From Actinomycetes bacterium (GTDB taxonomy: Bacteria > Actinomycetota > Acidimicrobiia > Acidimicrobiales > Poriferisodalaceae): a DNA stretch of 53,597 nt. Under the pieces are notes generated by a model that searched no databases, was not told the DNA's origin, and saw only the letters and a program-made list of their open reading frames with translations. Positions within the stretch are counted from its first letter, which is position 1; each line of letters begins with the position of its first letter. The stretch spans positions 1 to 53,597 of the forward strand of contig JAAETH010000509.1 in the NCBI GenBank assembly GCA_024228575.1. Reading direction: 5' to 3'. Shown one piece after another: positions 27,373 through 36,853 of the stretch. The position numbers and the translations under genes are program-made.

Positions 27373-27843
27373 GTGGAGATCAACGTCAACGTCAACGGCG
27401 AGGCGACATCGGCCGATGTCGAGCCGCGGCGCCTACTGGTTCACTACCTGCGTGAGGACGTGGGTCTGACAGGAACCAACATCGGATGCGACACCTCGTC
27501 GTGTGGCGCCTGCACCGTTCACCTCGACGGCGAATCGGTGAAGTCATGCACTGTTCTGGCCGTTCAGGCCGATGGCTCCGGTGTTGTCACCATCGAGGGC
27601 CTGGCCCCGAACGAAACCGATCTCCATCCGATGCAGGAGGCCTTCCGGCAGAACCATGGGCTGCAATGCGGCTATTGCACTCCGGGCATGGTCATGGCGG
27701 CGGTCAGCCTGCTGGACGAGAACCCCAAGCCCACCGAACGCGAAGTCCGCGAGGGCCTCGAGGGCAACCTGTGCCGCTGCACCGGATACCACAACATCGT
27801 CAAGGCCGTCCTCGCCGCCAGCGGGCAGCCGGTCGAGAGCTGA
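27373..27843 (+). CDS. coxS: CO-dehydrogenase/xanthine-oxidase-family [2Fe-2S] small subunit
   Basis: Electron-transfer subunit of a molybdenum hydroxylase. The plant-type [2Fe-2S] site is [15 protein letters not shown] with a further Cys in [10 protein letters not shown]. The second cluster is in [13 protein letters not shown] and [12 protein letters not shown]. 156 residues, normal for CoxS. GTG 27373 follows AGGGGGA. It is the first gene of the cox operon; coxM follows after ten bases. Assignment to CO dehydrogenase rather than another hydroxylase rests on the accessory genes, since no large subunit is present. Confidence 0.93.
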
Positions 27844-27853
27844 GGAGGCCGAC

Positions 27854-28681
27854 ATGATTCCTGCAGCATTCGACTACTTCCGTGCAGGCTCGGCCGAAGA
27901 GGCCGTGTCGCTACTCGTCGAACATGGCGATGAGGCCAAGATCATGGCCGGTGGGCATTCACTCGTGCCGATGATGAAATTGCGTCTGGCAGTTCCGACC
28001 GTCATCGTCGACGTCGGCAGGCTGAACGGTCTTCGGTACGTACAAGATGCCGGCGATCACCTCGCCATCGGGGCGCTCACAACTCACCGCATGCTCGAAA
28101 CCGACGACCTGTTGTCACAGCAGTGTCCGATTCTTCCCGCTGTCGCCCACGTCGTCGGTGATCCGCAGGTTCGGCATCGCGGCACTCTCGGAGGAACGTT
28201 GGCTCACAGCGATCCGGCTTCCGATCTCCCCGCTGCGATTCTGGCTCTGGGCGGCACCCTCGTCGCCCAAGGTCCCGATGGCACTCGCGAGATCGCAGCC
28301 GGCGACTTCTTCACCGGCTACTTCGAATCCGCCCTCGCCGAGGACGAGATGCTTACCGAGATCCGGGTGCCCAAGTGCCCGAACGCTGGTTGGAACTATC
28401 AGAAGTTCAATCGACGGGCCCAGGACTGGGCGATCGTTGGTGTTGCAGCGATCGTGGGCGAAGGGCTGACAGGTGTCAGTCTTGTCAACATGGGATCGGT
28501 TCCGATTCGTGCCTCGGGCGTCGAGGCTGCCCTTGCAGGAGGTGCAAACGCTGCCGACGCCGCGGCCTCAGCCGTCGATGGCACCGATGCGCCGACCGAC
28601 CTGAACGCAACCCCCGAATACCGCGAACACCTGGCCCGCGTTCTCACACGTCGCGCTCTCGAGGCTGCCGGCGTTGACTGA
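27854..28681 (+). CDS. coxM: CO-dehydrogenase-type FAD-binding medium subunit
   Basis: Passes electrons from the iron-sulfur subunit to the acceptor. FAD motifs [14 protein letters not shown] and the [19 protein letters not shown] region (here [16 protein letters not shown]) are canonical, with the C-terminal CODH_FAD domain ([14 protein letters not shown]). 275 residues. ATG 27854 has a strong GAGGAGG at 27842-27848; the frame open upstream is inside coxS. The end overlaps coxD by eight bases. Confidence 0.94.
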
Positions 28682-29600
28682 CGCGTCCGCTTCGCAGCCG
28701 GCACTCGGTGGATCACCTGCCGAAGTTGCGGCGGTTCTCGAGGCAAACGGATATCTGGCCGACGATGGTCTCGCGACCATCATCCATCTCGCCATCGCAC
28801 TCGGGCGGCCATTGCTGCTCGAAGGTGAGGCCGGAGTTGGCAAGACCGAGGTCGCCAAGGTCCTTTCTGCCGCCGGCGGAGGTGAACTGATACGGCTTCA
28901 GTGCTACGAGGGCATCGATGCATCGCAGGCGTTGTACGAGTGGGACTACACCCGTCAGCTGCTGCATCTGCGCACCGCCGAGGCGTCGGGTGACGCGGCG
29001 GGACGGGCCGATGAGCTGGAGCACGAACTATATTCCGAGCGGTTCCTGGTCAAGAGGCCTCTGCTGCGGGCACTCGATCCCGTTGCCGGTGTTCCTCCGG
29101 TCCTGCTCATCGACGAGGTCGACCGTGCCGACGACGAATTCGAGGCCTTCCTACTCGAGGTGCTCAGCGACTACTCGGTCACGATCCCCGAACTGGGCAC
29201 CTACACCGCTTCGAAACCCCCCATCGTCATCATCACCTCGAACCGGACGCGCGACGTTCACGACGCTCTCAAGCGCCGGTGTCTGTATCACTGGGTTGAA
29301 CATCCGGATTTCGAACGCGAGACCCGCATCATCGAACTGAAGTCCACCGGCGCGTCCGCAGAGTTGGCGCGACAGGTCGCCGCCGCAGCGACGTCGATGC
29401 GCGAGCTCGGCCTGTACAAACCTCCCGGTGTTGCCGAGACGATCGACTGGGCGACCGCGCTGGCCACGCTCGGCGCCGTCGAGATCGACGAGCAGATCGT
29501 GACGGCGACGATCGGAACCGTCCTGAAGTATCGGGAGGACCAGGCCAGGGTGGCCAGCCATGGCATCGATCAACTGGTCGCTTCCCTGAAACGTGACTGA
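28674..29600 (+). CDS. coxD: MoxR-type AAA+ ATPase, CoxD-like
   Basis: AAA+ chaperone needed to build the active site in Mo-Cu CO dehydrogenases (known for CoxD). Walker A LLEGEAGVGKTEVAKV, Walker B PPVLLIDEVDRADDEFEAFL, sensor 1 IVIITSNRTRDVHDAL, and KRRCLYHWVEHPDFERE, the usual MoxR ending. 308 residues. TTG 28674 overlaps the coxM stop; the stop overlaps coxE by eight bases. It pairs functionally with the VWA protein downstream. Confidence 0.93.
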   Translation: MTDASASQPALGGSPAEVAAVLEANGYLADDGLATIIHLAIALGRPLLLEGEAGVGKTEVAKVLSAAGGGELIRLQCYEGIDASQALYEWDYTRQLLHLRTAEASGDAAGRADELEHELYSERFLVKRPLLRALDPVAGVPPVLLIDEVDRADDEFEAFLLEVLSDYSVTIPELGTYTASKPPIVIITSNRTRDVHDALKRRCLYHWVEHPDFERETRIIELKSTGASAELARQVAAAATSMRELGLYKPPGVAETIDWATALATLGAVEIDEQIVTATIGTVLKYREDQARVASHGIDQLVASLKRD

Positions 29601-30729
29601 CACGATCGAGGTGTCGGGCGATCGGTTGGCTGTCGCGTTCACCCGCATCCTTCGTGGGGCCGGTCTCGAGGTTGTCACCTCACGCACCATGACCTTCGTC
29701 GAGGCGCTCTCGTGCATCGACGTCGCGAATCGTGACCAGGTCTACTGGTCGGGTCTGGCGACATTGACCTCCGATCCCCGCGATCGTGACGTTTACGACG
29801 CTGCGTTCGCAGTCTTCTGGGAAGGATCGGATCCAGCGCCGGGTGGCTTCGAGCTCGAAGAGCAGACGACCGAGATTCTCCTCGCTACCGACGCCGGACC
29901 CGAGTCCCCAGACGACGACGGTGAACCCGACATTCACGACGGGCCGATCATCGAGGTGCGCTGGAGCGATCGCGAAATCCTCTCCAACAAGGACTTCGCC
30001 GACTGCTCGGCCGACGAACTCGACCAGCTTCAGAAGTTGATGCGCTCGCTGCGTTGGAACGTCACCACCCGACCGAGTCGCCGTCTCGTCCGGACAAAAC
30101 GCCAGACTCGGAGGCCCGACCTGGGTCGAACCGTCCGGCGGGCCCTCGCTACCGGAGGAGAACCCATCCGCAGAGAATTCAGGGCGCCGGACAGAAGGCC
30201 CAGGCGTCTGGTTCTGCTGGTCGACGTCTCGGGTTCGATGGAAGCCTATGCAAGGGCACTGCTGCGTTTTGCCCATGCCGCTGTCGTCGGCAGGACGCGG
30301 GTCGAGGCCTTCACGATCGGCACGAGGCTCACCAGGGTCACGCGCGAGCTTCAGAGCCGCGACCCGGACGCGGCCATTCACGCTGCGTCGGAGTCGGTGA
30401 AGGACTGGTCGGGTGGCACCCGGCTTGGAGAGACACTTCGCGAGTTCAACGACCAGTGGGGTGTGCGCGGCCTTGCGCGCGGTGCCGTGGTGGTCGTCTT
30501 GAGCGATGGCTGGGACAGGGGTGAACCCGCCGAACTCGAGGCTCAGATGGAGCGTCTCCACCGGGTGACCTTTGATCTCATCTGGGTCAACCCTCTCAAG
30601 TACACCCCTGGGTATGCGCCCCTCGCACAGGGCATGGCCGCAGCGTTGCCTCACGTCGATCAGTTCGTCGAGGGACACGCCTTTGTTTCGCTCGAGATGC
30701 TCGCCGGCCTCATAGGAGAGAATTCGTAA
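29593..30729 (+). CDS. coxE: VWA-domain protein, CoxE-like
   Basis: Partner of the MoxR ATPase in metal-centre maturation. A mainly acidic N-terminal half (EDDGEPDIHDGPIIEVRWS) leads to a conserved arginine-rich stretch (TTRPSRRLVRTKRQTRR). A von Willebrand A domain follows with the MIDAS motif LLVDVSGSMEAYA at about residue 213, then SGGTRLGETLREF and VVVVLSDGWDRGEP. 378 residues, typical for CoxE. GTG 29593 overlaps the coxD stop. Confidence 0.92.
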   Translation: MTDTIEVSGDRLAVAFTRILRGAGLEVVTSRTMTFVEALSCIDVANRDQVYWSGLATLTSDPRDRDVYDAAFAVFWEGSDPAPGGFELEEQTTEILLATDAGPESPDDDGEPDIHDGPIIEVRWSDREILSNKDFADCSADELDQLQKLMRSLRWNVTTRPSRRLVRTKRQTRRPDLGRTVRRALATGGEPIRREFRAPDRRPRRLVLLVDVSGSMEAYARALLRFAHAAVVGRTRVEAFTIGTRLTRVTRELQSRDPDAAIHAASESVKDWSGGTRLGETLREFNDQWGVRGLARGAVVVVLSDGWDRGEPAELEAQMERLHRVTFDLIWVNPLKYTPGYAPLAQGMAAALPHVDQFVEGHAFVSLEMLAGLIGENS

Positions 30730-30763
30730 CCCCGGTAGTCTCGGCACAGCAGGGAGGTGCGAC

Positions 30764-31081
30764 ATGATCGAGATCCTCGACGACATCGAACGCTGGCAGC
30801 ACGGTGGCAAACGAATCGCCGTTGCCCGTGTTGTCGACATCGAAGGTTCGGGTCCCCGCGACCCGGGTGCGGCCATGGCCGTGAACGAGGACGGTGAGGT
30901 GGCGGGTTCGGTCTCGGGAGGATGTGTCGAGGGAGCCGTCGTCGGCGAAGCCCTCCAGCTCCTCGAAGGTGTTCGCGGCGCTGGTGTGGTCACGTTTGGC
31001 TACTCCGACGACGAGGCCTTTGCTGTCGGTCTCACATGCGGGGGCACAATCCACCTATTCCTCGAGGAACTGGACTGGTAG
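30764..31081 (+). CDS. XdhC/CoxF N-domain-only protein
   Basis: A 105-residue protein consisting of the XdhC_CoxI domain only: ARVVDIEGSGPRDPGAAM, GEVAGSVSGGCVEGAV with its conserved Cys, and GLTCGGTIHLFLEEL. XdhC proteins bind and protect the sulfurated molybdenum cofactor before insertion. ATG 30764 is preceded by GGGAGG. The next gene carries the C-terminal NAD-binding domain and overlaps by one base, so the pair may act as a split XdhC. Confidence 0.9.
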   Translation: MIEILDDIERWQHGGKRIAVARVVDIEGSGPRDPGAAMAVNEDGEVAGSVSGGCVEGAVVGEALQLLEGVRGAGVVTFGYSDDEAFAVGLTCGGTIHLFLEELDW

Positions 31082-31863
31082 TGGGCGATATCTACGATCT
31101 CTACCGAGACGCGCTGCGCAGCGAGACTCCGGCTGCCCTGGCGACCATCATCGAGGGCGCCGGCGTCGGAGCCAAGATGTTGGTTCGTCTCGACACCGAC
31201 CCGGTCGGCACCCTCGGCAACAGCGATCTCGACCGGGTGGTCGTACGCGATGTGTTGGCGGAACTCGACGCCGGCACGAGTGGAGTGCGCCACTATGGCC
31301 CCGAAGGTGAAGCCCGCCAGACCGACGTCAGCGTGTTCATCGAATCTCATGCTGCCCGCCATCAGCTGTTGATCTTCGGCGCAGTCGATTTCACGAGAGC
31401 TCTCGCGGCTCAGGGCAAACTCCTCGGCTACCGGGTCACCGTCTGCGACGCGCGTGAGGTGTTCGCGACCAGGCGCCGATTTCCCATGGCAGACGAGGTT
31501 GTCGTCGACTGGCCCAATCGCCTGCTCGATCGAGTCGGCGAATCGCTTGGGCCGCGCGATGCCATCTGTGTCCTCACACACGACAACAAGTTCGACGTGC
31601 CCGCCATCGTGTCAGCGCTGAAGACCAGGGTCGGGTACATCGGGGCGATGGGCAGTCGCCGCACTACCGACACGCGCAACAAACGTCTGCGCGAGGTCGG
31701 TGTCACCGACGAGCAGATCGACCACATCATGGCCCCGATCGGACTCGACATCGGTGCTCGATCCCCGGAGGAGACGGCCGTGTCGATCGTCGCCGAGATC
31801 ATCTCGAGTCGCACCGGACGTCAAGCCCCAAACCTCCGCGACCGCCACGGTGCAATTCATTGA
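31081..31863 (+). CDS. XdhC/CoxF family protein with Rossmann C-domain
   Basis: 260 residues. The first ~90 residues look like an XdhC N-domain without the SGGC motif (ALATIIEGAGVGAKMLVRLD); the rest is the XdhC C-terminal Rossmann domain (LLIFGAVDFTRALAAQGKLLG, VCVLTHDNKFDVPAI-like segment AICVLTHDNKFD, YIGAMGSRRTTDTR, GLDIGARSPEETAVSI). It would cooperate with the preceding 105-residue protein in cofactor sulfuration or handover. GTG 31081 shares one base with the previous stop. TTGA overlap with the next gene. Confidence 0.9.
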   Translation: MGDIYDLYRDALRSETPAALATIIEGAGVGAKMLVRLDTDPVGTLGNSDLDRVVVRDVLAELDAGTSGVRHYGPEGEARQTDVSVFIESHAARHQLLIFGAVDFTRALAAQGKLLGYRVTVCDAREVFATRRRFPMADEVVVDWPNRLLDRVGESLGPRDAICVLTHDNKFDVPAIVSALKTRVGYIGAMGSRRTTDTRNKRLREVGVTDEQIDHIMAPIGLDIGARSPEETAVSIVAEIISSRTGRQAPNLRDRHGAIH

Positions 31864-32417
31864 CAACGGCAGCGGTGCTCCTGGCGGCCGGCGAGGGCTC
31901 GCGGTACGACGGGCCTACCCACAAGCTGCTCGCTCCAATCGACGGTTCGGTGGTGTTCGAGCGATCGCTCATACCTGTCCTCGCAGCCGGGTTCGATGAG
32001 GTGATCGTCGTGACGGGCGCGTGTGAACTCGGTCGGTTCATCCCCGACGGCGTAACGATCATCGACAACCCGATCTGGGACGAAGGTCAGGCGACATCGC
32101 TTGCGGCCGCGGTCGACTACCTCCAGGCCGGTCTGCACGATGCAGCCGTCATCGGCCTCGCCGATCAGCCGGGGGTCACCACCGACTGCTGGCGATCGCT
32201 TCGGGAGTCGAACGCCGATCTCGCTGCTGCTTCCTACGAAGGGCGCCAGCGCAATCCGGTCCGCCTTGCACGGTCGGTGTGGCCCGAGCTCCCTCGCGAG
32301 GGCGACATCGGTGCACGCCAGATCCTGCGGGCGAGGTCGGCCGAGGTAGAGCGGATAACGTGTTCGGGAAATAGCGACGACATCGACACCCTGGAGGACC
32401 TGCGGTCATGGAGTTGA
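31860..32417 (+). CDS. MobA-like NTP transferase, probable molybdenum cofactor cytidylyltransferase
   Basis: Converts molybdopterin cofactor to the cytosine dinucleotide form used by CO dehydrogenases (inferred from family and context). GT-A motifs: AAVLLAAGEGSRYDGPTHKLL, IDNPIWDEGQATSLAAAV, VIGLADQPGVT, and GDIGARQIL. 185 residues. TTG 31860 overlaps the XdhC stop; the end overlaps coxG by ten bases. Specificity for CTP rather than GTP is not provable here. Confidence 0.88.
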   Translation: MTTAAVLLAAGEGSRYDGPTHKLLAPIDGSVVFERSLIPVLAAGFDEVIVVTGACELGRFIPDGVTIIDNPIWDEGQATSLAAAVDYLQAGLHDAAVIGLADQPGVTTDCWRSLRESNADLAAASYEGRQRNPVRLARSVWPELPREGDIGARQILRARSAEVERITCSGNSDDIDTLEDLRSWS

Positions 32418-33094
32418 GCAACGAGTTTCGAGTCGACGCCCCTATCGACGTCGCCTGGGCGATCTTGACCGATGTCGAGGGCATCGCTCCGTGTATGCCC
32501 GGAGCTCAGTTGACCGAGATCGACGGTGACGAGTTCAAGGGTTCGGTCAAGGTCAAGGTTGGCCCCATCACGGCCCAGTACCAGGGAGTCGCAAGATTCG
32601 CCGAGAAGGACGACGCCAACCACAAGGCTGTCATCGATGGCTCGGGTCGCGACACCCGCGGCCAGGGAAATGCCAGCGCTCTGGTAACGCTGCAGCTCAC
32701 AGCGGACGGCGAGGGCACCCACGCTCAGATCTCCACCGAGTTGAAGATCACCGGAAAGGTCGCTCAGTTCGGTCGCGGGGTCATGGCCGATGTGTCCCAG
32801 AAGTTGCTCGGACAGTTCGTCGAATGCCTCGAGGCAAAACTTGCAGATGCACCGACACACGAGGCTTCGGAAGTGTCGGGCGACGCCCCCACCGCAGAGG
32901 CCGACCCCGCCGGGGCATCTCCCCAGGATGAGGTGACCGAACCCACCGCTCCTTCGAGCCCGCGCAAGATCGACATGCCAGAGGCTCAGCCGGTCGACCT
33001 GCTCGATACCGCCGGTGCACCGCTTCTGAAGCGGATCGCGCCGGTTCTCGCCGTCTTGATCCTGTTGTTCTTGTTGCGTCGCCGTCGACACTAG
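32408..33094 (+). CDS. coxG: CoxG-type SRPBCC protein with C-terminal membrane anchor
   Basis: CoxG recruits the CO dehydrogenase to the membrane and has been linked to quinone binding. The first ~145 residues are the CoxG lipid-binding fold (FRVDAPIDVAWAILTDVEGIAPCMPGAQ in part, GSVKVKVGPITAQYQG, GKVAQFGRGVMADVS). An acidic, Ala/Pro-rich linker follows, then one C-terminal helix (IAPVLAVLILLFLL) capped by RRRRH, so the protein is tail-anchored with its domain inside. ATG 32408. It ends the cox operon; a 70-base gap precedes the Hsp70-like gene. Confidence 0.92.
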   Translation: MELSNEFRVDAPIDVAWAILTDVEGIAPCMPGAQLTEIDGDEFKGSVKVKVGPITAQYQGVARFAEKDDANHKAVIDGSGRDTRGQGNASALVTLQLTADGEGTHAQISTELKITGKVAQFGRGVMADVSQKLLGQFVECLEAKLADAPTHEASEVSGDAPTAEADPAGASPQDEVTEPTAPSSPRKIDMPEAQPVDLLDTAGAPLLKRIAPVLAVLILLFLLRRRRH

Positions 33095-33164: not shown

Positions 33165-35030
33165 ATGGGGTACCGCGTGACGTACTGGATCGGTGTTGAT
33201 CTGGGCACCACCTATACGGCTGCGGCCACACACTCATCGGATCGGAGCGAGATCTTCGACCTGGGAACGCGCACGTCCACCATTCCGTCGGTTGTCTACG
33301 TGCGAGACGACGGGACCTTTCTCACAGGTGCCGCTGCCAGTCGGCGAGCCCTCCAGGACCCAAGCCGCGTGGCCCGGGAGTTCAAGCGCCGGGTGGGCGA
33401 TCCGACACCGATCTTGCTCGCGGGCAGCCCCTACCCCGCCGAGGCCCTGTCCGCCAAACTTCTCCGATCCGTCATCGACGCGATCACGACGCGACAGGGC
33501 TCGGCTCCCGAAGGGGTCGTTCTCACTCACCCGGCGAACTGGGGCCCCTACAAGCTCGATCTGTTGGCTCAGGCGCTCCGTGTCGCCGAGATCGGCGATG
33601 TCGAGCTCTTGACCGAACCCGAGGCGGCTGCCATTCAGTACGCCTCACTCGAACGGGTGGAGCCAGGATCCGTGATCGCCGTGTTCGACCTCGGCGGCGG
33701 CACCTTCGATGCTGCGGTTCTGCGCAAGGACGACGAGCAGGGATTCCAGTTTCTCGGACGTCCGGAGGGCATCGAAAGATTGGGCGGCGCCGACTTCGAC
33801 GAAGCGGTGTTCGGATTTGTTTCACGTTGGGCCGGCGACGCAATCCAGGCGCTCGACCCCAACGACTCGACAGCGCTTGCGGCCGTAGCGCGTTTGCGCT
33901 CCGAGTGTGTCGAAGCCAAAGAAGCCCTCTCCTTCGACACCAAGGTCACGATTCCCGTCGTGCTTCCGAACGTTCACACCGAAGTAACCCTCACGCGGTC
34001 GGAGTTCGAGAACCTGATCCGTCCGAGCCTCGACAATGCCATCGAAACAATGCGTCGTGTCGTCAAGGGAGCCGGCATCGAGTTGAGCGATGTCGACCTC
34101 GTCTTGCTCGTCGGTGGTAGCAGTCGTATCCCGCTCATCGGACAGATGGTCGCCGGTGGCCTCGGACGTCCTGTGGCAATCGACGCCCACCCGAAACACC
34201 TGGTCGCCCTCGGCGCAGCGCTCGCGGCTTCAACCCCTGACCCGCCCGCTGTCGAGGTTGTTGTGGCTGCGCCGCCGACGATGACGCAGCCGGTGCCCCC
34301 CGTCCGGGTCGAGCCGGTCGTCGAGCCTCGGCCCAAATCGGTCGTCGACACCACCGAAGAGGACCGGCCGAAGCGTGGTCTTCTCATCGCCGGCGCGGTT
34401 GCTCTCGCCCTGGTCGTGGCCCTCGGCGCCCTTTTCCTTCGACCCGACGACGGCGACAGTGCCGAGGCTGCCCTCAGTGCCCCCTCGACCGTTGCCGGCG
34501 CCGACGGCACCGACGACTCGAGCGACACCCCACTTCAGCCGGACGCGACCGAGGGTTCGGTGGAGCCAGAGATGGCGGTCTCAACCACTGAGGACGACCA
34601 GGCGGAGGTTCCCGAAACCCCGGCTACTTCGACGACCAACGACACGCTGGCGGACAACACGACGACCGCTGCCCCGACGACCGCTGCGGTGATGACAGCG
34701 GTCTCAACAACGACGGCACGGCCCACGACCACGGCCTCGGCGACCACCACGACGAGCACGCCCACCACAACTCCCGAACCCACGACGACCACGTCCACGA
34801 CCACCACCTCGACAACGACGACCACCACCACGACGGCCACGACGACTCCACGGACGACCTTCGTGCCCAGTGTCAGCGGGCTCACCGGTGCCGCCGCGGT
34901 GACGAGCATCCGCAATCAGGGCCTGAACGCGTCGTGCGGAGATCGGTGCGCCGACATCGTTGCAGGCACCAGCCCGGGTGCTGTGACCGAACTCGAACCC
35001 GGGACGACTATTACCCTCATCTTCGGATGA
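33165..35030 (+). CDS. Membrane-anchored Hsp70-like protein with Thr-rich linker and PASTA-like domain
   Basis: Residues ~1-360 form an actin/Hsp70 ATPase: WIGVDLGTTYTAAA, LTHPANWGPYK, AVFDLGGGTFDAAVL, LLVGGSSRIPLIGQ. The DnaK substrate-binding domain is absent. A Pro-rich stretch leads to one membrane helix (LLIAGAVALALVVALGALFL, about 405-425). Outside lie an acidic segment, about 110 residues of mostly Thr, and a C-terminal ~55-residue PASTA-like domain (FVPSVSGLTGAAAVTSI ... LEPGTTITLIFG) with a CGDRC pair. ATG 33165; GTG 33177 is an alternative. Function unknown; the design suggests an ATPase sensing or bracing the cell wall. Its stop lies just before the secreted propeller gene. Confidence 0.85.
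   Translation: MGYRVTYWIGVDLGTTYTAAATHSSDRSEIFDLGTRTSTIPSVVYVRDDGTFLTGAAASRRALQDPSRVAREFKRRVGDPTPILLAGSPYPAEALSAKLLRSVIDAITTRQGSAPEGVVLTHPANWGPYKLDLLAQALRVAEIGDVELLTEPEAAAIQYASLERVEPGSVIAVFDLGGGTFDAAVLRKDDEQGFQFLGRPEGIERLGGADFDEAVFGFVSRWAGDAIQALDPNDSTALAAVARLRSECVEAKEALSFDTKVTIPVVLPNVHTEVTLTRSEFENLIRPSLDNAIETMRRVVKGAGIELSDVDLVLLVGGSSRIPLIGQMVAGGLGRPVAIDAHPKHLVALGAALAASTPDPPAVEVVVAAPPTMTQPVPPVRVEPVVEPRPKSVVDTTEEDRPKRGLLIAGAVALALVVALGALFLRPDDGDSAEAALSAPSTVAGADGTDDSSDTPLQPDATEGSVEPEMAVSTTEDDQAEVPETPATSTTNDTLADNTTTAAPTTAAVMTAVSTTTARPTTTASATTTTSTPTTTPEPTTTTSTTTTSTTTTTTTTATTTPRTTFVPSVSGLTGAAAVTSIRNQGLNASCGDRCADIVAGTSPGAVTELEPGTTITLIFG
34620..34860 (+). repeat. Low-complexity Thr-coding tract
   Basis: Irregular acg/acc triplet repeats encoding the extracellular Thr-rich linker of the Hsp70-like protein, densest at 34780-34850. 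Similar tracts occur in the Rpf and anti-sigma-like genes. Confidence 0.8.
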
Positions 35031-35044
35031 ACGGAGCGAATGCC

Positions 35045-36853
35045 ATGATCCTCAGAGCTCGAATGAAGACTCTTGCGGTTGTTGCCCTTGTCGTGACGGC
35101 GGTGGGGTTTGGTGCAGCTACCTCGGCCCATGCAGCCGAGGAGAGCGACGGCTACTGGATTCTCGACCAGGCGGGCAACCTCTATTCCTTCGGTGGTGCC
35201 GACGAGTTCGTTCCGGTGTTCGGCACAGCTGTCGACATGGCGTCGGGACCGAAGGAGTCTCTGTGGATCCTCACCACCGACGGTGTTGTCCACACCCGCG
35301 GGTCGGCCCAGAGTTATGGCAACGTCGACCTCGACACCCTCGACGATGACGAGGTACCCAGCGCCATCTCGGTGACCCCGAGCGGCGAGGGCTACTGGGT
35401 CTTCACATCGCGAGGCAGGGCTCAGGCATTCGGAGATGCCGCGTACTACGGGGGTGTCGAACATCTCGTCCTCGACGGACCGGTCATCGATGCCGTAGCC
35501 ATGCCCGACGGAACCGGCTACTACATGGTCGCGTCCGATGGTGGTGTGTTCGCGTTCGGTTCTGCAGATTTCTACGGCTCGATGGGCGGCATACCGCTCG
35601 ATCGGCCGGTGAATGCACTCATCCCTGACCCTGACGGTGTCGGCTACTGGCTGACGGCCGAAGATGGCGGCATCTTCGCATTCCTGGCACCGTTCAAGGG
35701 TTCGATGGGCGGCATCGACCTGGTCCAGCCGGTGGTCGGAGGTATGTCCTACGGCAGTGGCTACACAATGATCGCTTCCGACGGGGGCGCCTTTGTGTTC
35801 TCCGAGCTCTCATTCCTCGGCAGCCTCGGAGGTGTCGAACTGCCCGCACCGGTCGTGTCGATCGCAGCCTCGTACCCGGCTCCGCCCGTCGGCCCCGAGA
35901 CCATCACGTACGTCGGCAACGTCATGGCGGGTGACGGATCCTGGCAGGGGAGAGCTGGCTTCGGTGCGATGTGGATCCCCAACAAGACCGAGAACACGGT
36001 CACCGTTGTCGACACCACGACCCTCGAGGTCGTCGAGACGATCCCGGTGGGCCAGCAGCCGTACCCTGTCTCGATCGGTGGTGACAAGATCTGGGTACCG
36101 AACAATGGTGATGGAACGATGACGGTCATCGATGCGGTGACGCGCGAGGTGCTCGCAACGATTGCCACTGGATCACAGCCGCGAACACCCCCGCACTACG
36201 ACGACAAGGCGTATGTTTCGAACCGCGGCGACGGCACGATCACGGTCATCGACCACAACACACTGCAGGTGCTCTCGACGTTCCCCGTCGGGGGCGGTGG
36301 GCAGTCGCCGATCATCAGCGACGATCTGCTTTGGATGGCCGATGTCGACGAGGACCAGGTCGTCGTGTTCGATGCCATGACGTTCGATCAGGTCGCCACC
36401 ATTCCCGTTGGGGACAAGCCATACACGCCGTCGGCTGGCTTCGATCGGCTCTGGGTGCCCAACCACGGTGAGAACACGGTGTCGGTCATCGATCCGGCGA
36501 CGTTCGAGGTGGTCGACACGATTACCGTCGGTTCGAAGCCCTTCCGCCCCCTCGTGGCCTACGACCTGCTATTTGTCGCCGGGTCCGACTCGAACGATCT
36601 GGTCATCATCGATCCGACCGACAATTCGACGCGGTTCCAGCCATTGGCCGATGGAGCCCTCATGCCCACCCCTGGCCAGGACGTCATCTGGGTTGCGAAC
36701 AATCTCAGTGACAAGCTGGCGGTGTTCGATCCGGTCACGTTCGAGGTGGTTGCCGAACTCGACATCGTGGGCCCGAAGAAGCCCGCTGTTGTTGGCGAGT
36801 TTGTCTGGGTCTCCACCGATGGTGGCGTGATCCATGTATTCAAGGCTCGTTGA
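35045..36853 (+). CDS. Secreted beta-propeller protein (GYW/GG repeats plus YVTN repeats)
   Basis: A signal peptide (MKTLAVVALVVTAVGFGAATSAHAA) is followed by about five repeats of the type GYWILDQAGNLYSFGGA and GYYMVASDGGVFAFGSADFYG, often seen in exported actinobacterial proteins. From about residue 300 come at least six YVTN-type blades (MWIPNKTENTVTVVDTTTLE, VSNRGDGTITVIDHNTLQV). Both parts should form propellers outside the cell; ligand unknown. ATG 35045 has CGGAG eight bases upstream; ATG 35027 overlapping the upstream stop (ATGA) is an alternative. It is probably cotranscribed with the Hsp70-like gene. It converges on pilB with a 15-base gap. Confidence 0.88.
   Translation: MILRARMKTLAVVALVVTAVGFGAATSAHAAEESDGYWILDQAGNLYSFGGADEFVPVFGTAVDMASGPKESLWILTTDGVVHTRGSAQSYGNVDLDTLDDDEVPSAISVTPSGEGYWVFTSRGRAQAFGDAAYYGGVEHLVLDGPVIDAVAMPDGTGYYMVASDGGVFAFGSADFYGSMGGIPLDRPVNALIPDPDGVGYWLTAEDGGIFAFLAPFKGSMGGIDLVQPVVGGMSYGSGYTMIASDGGAFVFSELSFLGSLGGVELPAPVVSIAASYPAPPVGPETITYVGNVMAGDGSWQGRAGFGAMWIPNKTENTVTVVDTTTLEVVETIPVGQQPYPVSIGGDKIWVPNNGDGTMTVIDAVTREVLATIATGSQPRTPPHYDDKAYVSNRGDGTITVIDHNTLQVLSTFPVGGGGQSPIISDDLLWMADVDEDQVVVFDAMTFDQVATIPVGDKPYTPSAGFDRLWVPNHGENTVSVIDPATFEVVDTITVGSKPFRPLVAYDLLFVAGSDSNDLVIIDPTDNSTRFQPLADGALMPTPGQDVIWVANNLSDKLAVFDPVTFEVVAELDIVGPKKPAVVGEFVWVSTDGGVIHVFKAR

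Follow-up and report, generated by a model that had tools for sequence, protein, structure and literature searches.

The gene examined here lies on contig JAAETH010000509.1 of an Actinomycetes bacterium (assembly GCA_024228575.1; Acidimicrobiales, Poriferisodalaceae), and the whole 53,597-nucleotide stretch that was analysed, contig C509 in our numbering, is referred to below as the window. An ORF of 621 aa on the plus strand (33165..35030) encodes, in order, an Hsp70 ATPase, a transmembrane helix, a threonine-rich linker and a PASTA domain. The true start is probably the GTG at 33177, giving 617 aa, because the 87%-identical paralogue on contig C483 begins at the same GTG. Immediately upstream on the same strand, a CoxG-like gene (32408..33094), the last of a cox maturation cluster, ends 70 bp before the ORF and 82 bp before GTG 33177, with synteny kept in locus L056. 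The cluster as a whole (27572-33094) is of the CO dehydrogenase maturation type, comprising an FAD subunit, AAA, CoxE, XdhC, MobA-like and CoxG genes, and runs into the Hsp70-PASTA gene. Downstream, after a gap of 14 bp, a gene on the plus strand (35045..36853) encodes a secreted two-part propeller protein of 602 aa with a signal peptide and a YncE/YVTN-type C-terminal half. An assembly artefact was ruled out as the origin of the Hsp70-PASTA fusion, because the fusion and its neighbours recur in a genus relative (G004), where the order Hsp70-PASTA-propeller is found in the same cox context.

The N-terminal Hsp70 nucleotide-binding domain (residues 8-357; 33186..34235, plus strand) keeps the ATPase residues and scores 163.1 bits against Pfam HSP70 (PF00012, cut-off 20.6). 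Since this match ends at residue 356, the protein has no substrate-binding domain; it also lacks a VLLLDVTPLSLG-type linker, and alignment with the DnaK of the same genome confirmed that the interdomain linker is absent. The domain is followed on the same strand by a proline-rich juxtamembrane segment with basic residues at its end (34236..34376), assigned to the cytoplasm from its sequence and the family topology described below, by a predicted transmembrane helix (residues 405-425; 34377..34439) with a mean hydropathy of 2.77, flanked by KR before and DD after, and by a predicted disordered extracellular linker, acidic at first and then Thr/Ser-rich (34440..34853). A full-length structural model gave pLDDT values of about 90-98 for the Hsp70 domain, a helix at residues 405-423 and values mostly below 50 for the linker, with the PASTA region poorly modelled (about 36-59). 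These results agree with a preliminary description of the locus, which had proposed a DnaK-type ATPase without a substrate-binding domain, joined through a single helix and a Thr linker to a PASTA-like C-terminal domain.

The PASTA domain itself (residues 567-620; 34863..35024, plus strand) was recognized by Pfam, by a PDB sequence match and by fold prediction. It scores 24.8 bits against PF03793 within the whole protein and 30.0 bits alone (cut-off 23.2), while residues 560-621 find the PASTA region of Mycobacterium tuberculosis PknB as their best, weak match among PDB sequences (E 0.004). An AlphaFold2 model of residues 560-621 reached a pLDDT of 90.8, and ranks 1-30 of the 35 Foldseek rows obtained with it were all PASTA chains—domains of PknB, PrkC, StkP, PBP1, PBP2x or PonA2—with a best E of only 0.002 over 62 residues; by VIA, the model superimposes on the PASTA domain of Staphylococcus aureus PBP1 with a Z of 10.2 and 1.7 Å over 59 residues. 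A misread or chance PASTA match was ruled out by the isolated-domain pLDDT of 91, Foldseek ranks 1-30 and the Z of 10.2. No non-PASTA fold emerged for the C-terminal domain among these top 30 rows, and the prediction of a membrane helix was upheld by its hydropathy and by a charge bias across the family. No kinase family appeared among the Pfam matches of the window protein, and NF033483 covers its linker and PASTA part only, at 16.3 bits against a cut-off of 450. The layout resembles that of the PASTA kinases PknB, PrkC and StkP, in which a nucleotide-using domain inside, one helix and a Thr-rich linker lead to PASTA outside; the window protein differs in having an Hsp70 ATPase as its cytoplasmic domain and a single PASTA unit where those kinases have several. 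This unit carries a CGDRC loop (C591-C595; 34935..34949, plus strand), in which we infer a disulphide. A CGxRC loop is found in two Hsp70s and one kinase. Muropeptides and lipid II have been reported as ligands of the PASTA domains of PknB (PMC3145798, PMC6428115).

The kinase in question is encoded on contig C589 of the same genome and combines a Ser/Thr kinase domain (PF00069, 152 bits) with a helix, a Thr linker and a PASTA domain. The latter is 50% identical to the window PASTA over 54 aa, CGxRC loop included, and alone scores 22.1 bits, under the Pfam cut-off of 23.2. Moreover, the gene that follows this kinase encodes a propeller 44% identical over 613 aa to the one in the window. Because both the PASTA domain and the propeller of the window are paralogous to those of the C589 kinase, a kinase and an Hsp70 ATPase of one genome share, as judged from these alignments, a single PASTA-plus-propeller sensor cassette, and we propose that the propeller at 35045..36853 is the partner of the window receptor. 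The propeller was dropped as a generic marker, since its N-terminal half has a large number of paralogues, and full-length matches alone were therefore counted: there are three, each of them behind a CGxRC PASTA receptor (two Hsp70s, one kinase). That N-terminal half, with its GYW...DGG repeats, has 45 matches in the same genome at E <= 1e-30, an unusually large expansion of surface proteins. A CGxRC PASTA profile searched at E <= 1e-9 against 248 genomes of the order retrieved the two copies of the window's own genome only.

Besides DnaK, the genome encodes four Hsp70 proteins of this kind, on contigs C509 (the window), C483, C310 and C595. Among the loci fetched, which come from actinobacterial genomes, there are 84 distinct family members; in 61, the ATPase domain is followed by a membrane helix. 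Membership was set at 212 bits to a family profile—a cut-off chosen after the data had been seen, with ordinary DnaK reaching at most 210; the lowest members, at 220-222 bits, are both cut and helix-less and hence uncertain, and every helix-bearing member scores at least 249 bits. Two partial rows that duplicate the window protein (L097, L020) were left out. In one search, six of the 80 named loci belonged to the family, the other 74 being ordinary DnaK-type proteins or under the member cut-off; the member in genome G600 has no helix. Counts of lysine plus arginine are higher ahead of the helix than behind it in 50 of these 61 proteins, equal in eight and lower in three, a positive-inside trend in line with a cytoplasmic ATPase.

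What lies outside varies widely. Six helix-bearing members have at most 29 residues outside; the ectodomains of the remaining 55 were scanned, and Pfam matches included FGE-sulfatase (6), PQQ_2 (5), DUF6923-type propellers (4), PD40 (3), BON (3), Septum_form (2), PASTA (2), RCC1 (1) and Peripla_BP_6/ANF_receptor (1), with PASTA confined to the genus of the window. The architecture given in the preliminary description stands, but not its view of the protein as an unusual design: it is one member of a wide family of receptors whose outer domains can be swapped. That description also passed over the propeller gene, the kinase with a common cassette and the connection of the family to IniA-type dynamins. 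A comparable repertoire—PASTA, ANF_receptor, WD, PQQ and DUF323/FGE domains—has been described for receptor Ser/Thr kinases (PMC1262709), and on inspection of their sequences PASTA, WD40-, NHL- and solute-binding-like ectodomains are also present on kinases encoded by these genomes. Another type of ectodomain, H.HFF, recurs in 15 of the 61 helix-bearing members (e.g., L005:2761-3105 and L110:7726-8070). Across 13 aligned sequences, three of its histidines and two of its cysteines are invariant; Pfam at E 0.01 returned nothing for it in L028 and a BON match alone in L068, and PDB profiles gave a best E of 0.17, with weak hits to fragments of Cu/Zn superoxide dismutase. It is possibly metal-binding. 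Three members without a clear membrane helix (L208:2566-4914, L210:2399-6337 and L085:1144-3861) have C-termini that look FHA-like by eye, and these proteins may possibly act as soluble adaptors reading phosphothreonine.

Within the genus, the tree obtained was (C310,(G004 PASTA,(window PASTA, C483))), with bootstrap values of 100 throughout, the bootstrap not being fully settled. By these sequence relationships, the window gene is related to the C310 copy, which stands beside the IniA-like pair of the genome, as a genus-level paralogue whose ectodomain has been swapped. The C483 paralogue is 87% identical to the window protein in its ATPase domain, but the two ectodomains are unrelated, which makes the swapping of sensors a recent event. 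Directly behind this C483 gene with its replaced ectodomain lies an ORF that looks transposase-like by eye (L022:2414-3508). A search of plasmids for close relatives, with an E limit of 1e-45, returned no match.

The genes adjoining family members repeatedly include pairs of dynamin-like GTPases. In the 248 genomes of the order, the Hsp70 family was detected in 24 (E <= 1e-70) and Dynamin_N in 42 (E <= 1e-6), the two occurring together in 22 (Fisher 7e-18, relatedness ignored); at least two dynamins were present in 22 of the 24 family-positive genomes versus three of the 224 others (Fisher 4e-26, relatedness likewise ignored). Since the genomes are related, these Fisher values overstate independence. 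Hsp70 and dynamin genes lie within 13 kb of each other in 17 of 22 genomes, against 0.49 expected with random placement and with relatedness ignored; this distance was set after the data had been seen, and 16 of the 22 are linked within 7 kb. Among 396 genomes of the phylum, all seven family-positive ones outside the order have a linked dynamin pair. Paractinoplanes durhamensis (L111), which is culturable, has an Hsp70 gene of the family next to a dynamin pair. Counter-cases are G117 and G124, which have the Hsp70 without dynamins, and 20 genomes with dynamins and no Hsp70 of this family; in five genomes both are present and unlinked on their contigs, and in the genus relative G004 they are on separate contigs.

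The larger dynamin matches Mycobacterium smegmatis IniA almost from end to end at the three loci compared (E 1e-111, 5e-66 and 2e-94). On contig C310 the Hsp70 gene is followed by an IniR-like AAA-LuxR regulator and then by the dynamin pair, whose IniA-like member is the one with E 1e-111. The C310 locus thus resembles iniBAC/IniR in placing the paralogue beside an IniA-like dynamin, a second dynamin and the regulator. It differs in that the regulator matches the IniR equivalog NF038181 (E 2e-32) at 112 bits, under the cut-off of 750, in that there is no IniB family match, and in that the window gene lies elsewhere: an IniA/IniC dynamin pair is absent beside the window gene and present beside the C310 paralogue. 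A 568-aa acidic, Thr-rich ORF on the minus strand (L290:4314-6020) sits beside the IniA-like dynamin of C310 in the iniB position; no NCBIfam family matched it. IniA has been reported to carry out membrane fission, and Ini dynamins have been linked to membrane integrity under tuberculosis drugs (PMC6715688); in M. smegmatis, a dnaK-like gene lies downstream of iniR (PMC5760070).

We propose, with a probability of roughly 45%, that the window protein is a single-pass envelope-sensing receptor whose Hsp70 ATPase works as an ATP/ADP switch, not as a peptide-binding chaperone, and feeds Ini-type machinery. The computed basis consists of the way in which the domains are ordered and folded, the positive-inside trend, the swappable ectodomains, the cassette shared with a kinase, and the linkage and co-occurrence with IniA-type dynamins. 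Through putative peptidoglycan binding, and probably with the help of the secreted propeller, the PASTA domain would read the state of the cell wall; the wall signal would then alter, across the helix, the nucleotide state or the clustering of the Hsp70 domain, a predicted ATPase. The switched domain would act in trans, by a putative contact, on the Ini-type machinery encoded next to its closest ini-linked paralogue on contig C310, namely the two dynamins and the IniR-like regulator, so that the membrane is reshaped or protected. For the window copy, this last action is the least certain step, carried over by analogy from the family; against it stands the position of the gene, which follows a cox cluster and has no adjoining dynamins.

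That position gives substance to the strongest competing explanation, which we consider unlikely: the protein would be an envelope receptor, but in place of dynamins it would serve the neighbouring cox genes, which are for CO dehydrogenase maturation, or some other unlinked partner. The coxG gene lies 70 bp upstream in the same orientation, or 82 bp upstream of the likelier GTG start, the order is retained in G004, and the dynamin pair of the genome is on a different contig. However, the kinase that shares the PASTA-plus-propeller cassette lies outside any cox cluster, and the other three paralogues of the genome have no neighbouring cox genes in the stretches read.

A switch was also weighed against a structural role, in which the Hsp70 domain would be an actin-like membrane scaffold or tether that PASTA pins to the wall, like the filament-envelope links of FtsA and MreB. 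Hsp70, MreB and FtsA have a common actin fold, and MreB_Mbl exceeds its Pfam cut-off on the window protein (35.8 versus 27 bits); in addition, the IniA-type dynamins are membrane remodellers (PMC6715688). The HSP70 score is far higher, however, at 163 bits, and the domain model is closest to DnaK (Z 43; 2.2-2.3 Å over about 350 residues), while ectodomains of the solute-binding, RCC1 or PQQ types would be ill-suited to a simple wall tether. We regard the scaffold as quite improbable.

Still less probable is a membrane-anchored chaperone accessory, whose Hsp70 domain would work with DnaJ and GrpE or lend its ATPase to the housekeeping DnaK. The genome does encode DnaK, together with three J-domain proteins that pass the cut-off, and the ATPase site is intact: 51-52 of 52 aligned rows retain the equivalents of DnaK D8, T11, K70, E171, D194, T199 and D201, which we take to be the ATPase residues. 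The couplings to chaperone partners, on the other hand, are missing. The substrate-binding domain and interdomain linker are gone, and at the positions of DnaK R167, N170 and T173, which reportedly take part in binding DnaJ or in the stimulation of DnaK (PMC4022485), the window protein has E, T and E. Across the aligned rows, the N170 position is T and the T173 position E in 36 of 52 each. No J-domain gene occurs on the contigs of the four paralogues of the genome, and no J-domain or GrpE gene was seen near family members among the 25 families listed of 67 (70 of 74 adjacent genes scanned). Since the ATPase residues are kept and the linker, substrate-binding domain and DnaJ contacts are lost, the engine is, to judge by sequence, retained in this Hsp70 group and its chaperone couplings are not. 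Compared with DnaK/Hsp70 chaperones, the window protein is thus alike in its nucleotide-binding domain, by sequence, fold and ATPase residues, and unlike them in being anchored in the membrane and in the parts lost or replaced. An ordinary DnaK copy was ruled out on the same features. Finally, it is hardly credible that the C-terminal match is no true PASTA domain or that the helix lies outside the membrane: the modest scores (24.8 bits for the whole protein, PDB E 0.004) and the poor PASTA region of the full-length model would fit such a reading, but the isolated model (pLDDT 91), the top 30 Foldseek rows, all PASTA, and the recurrence of helix and charge bias across the family speak against it.

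The individual domains and the receptor logic of the proposed Hsp70 receptor are known; an Hsp70 ATPase as the cytoplasmic half appears to be new, and the large Hsp70-receptor family has apparently been undescribed so far. The accessible parts of the open-access literature searched contain no description of transmembrane Hsp70 receptors and, for an association of Hsp70 with dynamins, only the M. smegmatis remark (PMC5760070) and the Hsp70 without a substrate-binding domain of DO-GTPase systems (PMC7159879). The DO-GTPase/GAP1 conflict systems (eLife 2020, PMC7159879) are similar in that an Hsp70 without a peptide-binding domain is found near paired GTPases. They differ in that those GTPases are described as a separate, often zinc-ribbon-bearing TRAFAC family; the text of that article uses the word "dynamin" 0 times, and its accessible portions describe no membrane-receptor Hsp70s with ectodomains.

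If the proposal is correct, an Hsp70 ATPase would do the signalling in a receptor, something for which the open-access literature searched offers no description, and the Ini dynamins would gain a candidate membrane sensor, which bears on what triggers them. More doubtfully, and as a tentative generalization, Actinobacteria may possess, in addition to kinases and chemoreceptors, a further class of transmembrane receptor built on an Hsp70 ATPase, with ectodomains that can be exchanged and a common output in an IniA-type dynamin pair, in which an ATP switch set by outside signals would control membrane remodelling. The window protein would represent the peptidoglycan-reading branch, by way of a PASTA-plus-propeller cassette moved between kinase and Hsp70. 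Such a common sensor cassette amounts to a natural domain-swap experiment. A further effector type with a PASTA ectodomain is found in the same genus, in the form of a CHAT-domain protein with a membrane helix, a Thr linker and PASTA encoded on the minus strand of a G004 contig (L059, contig C586, 2824-4839).
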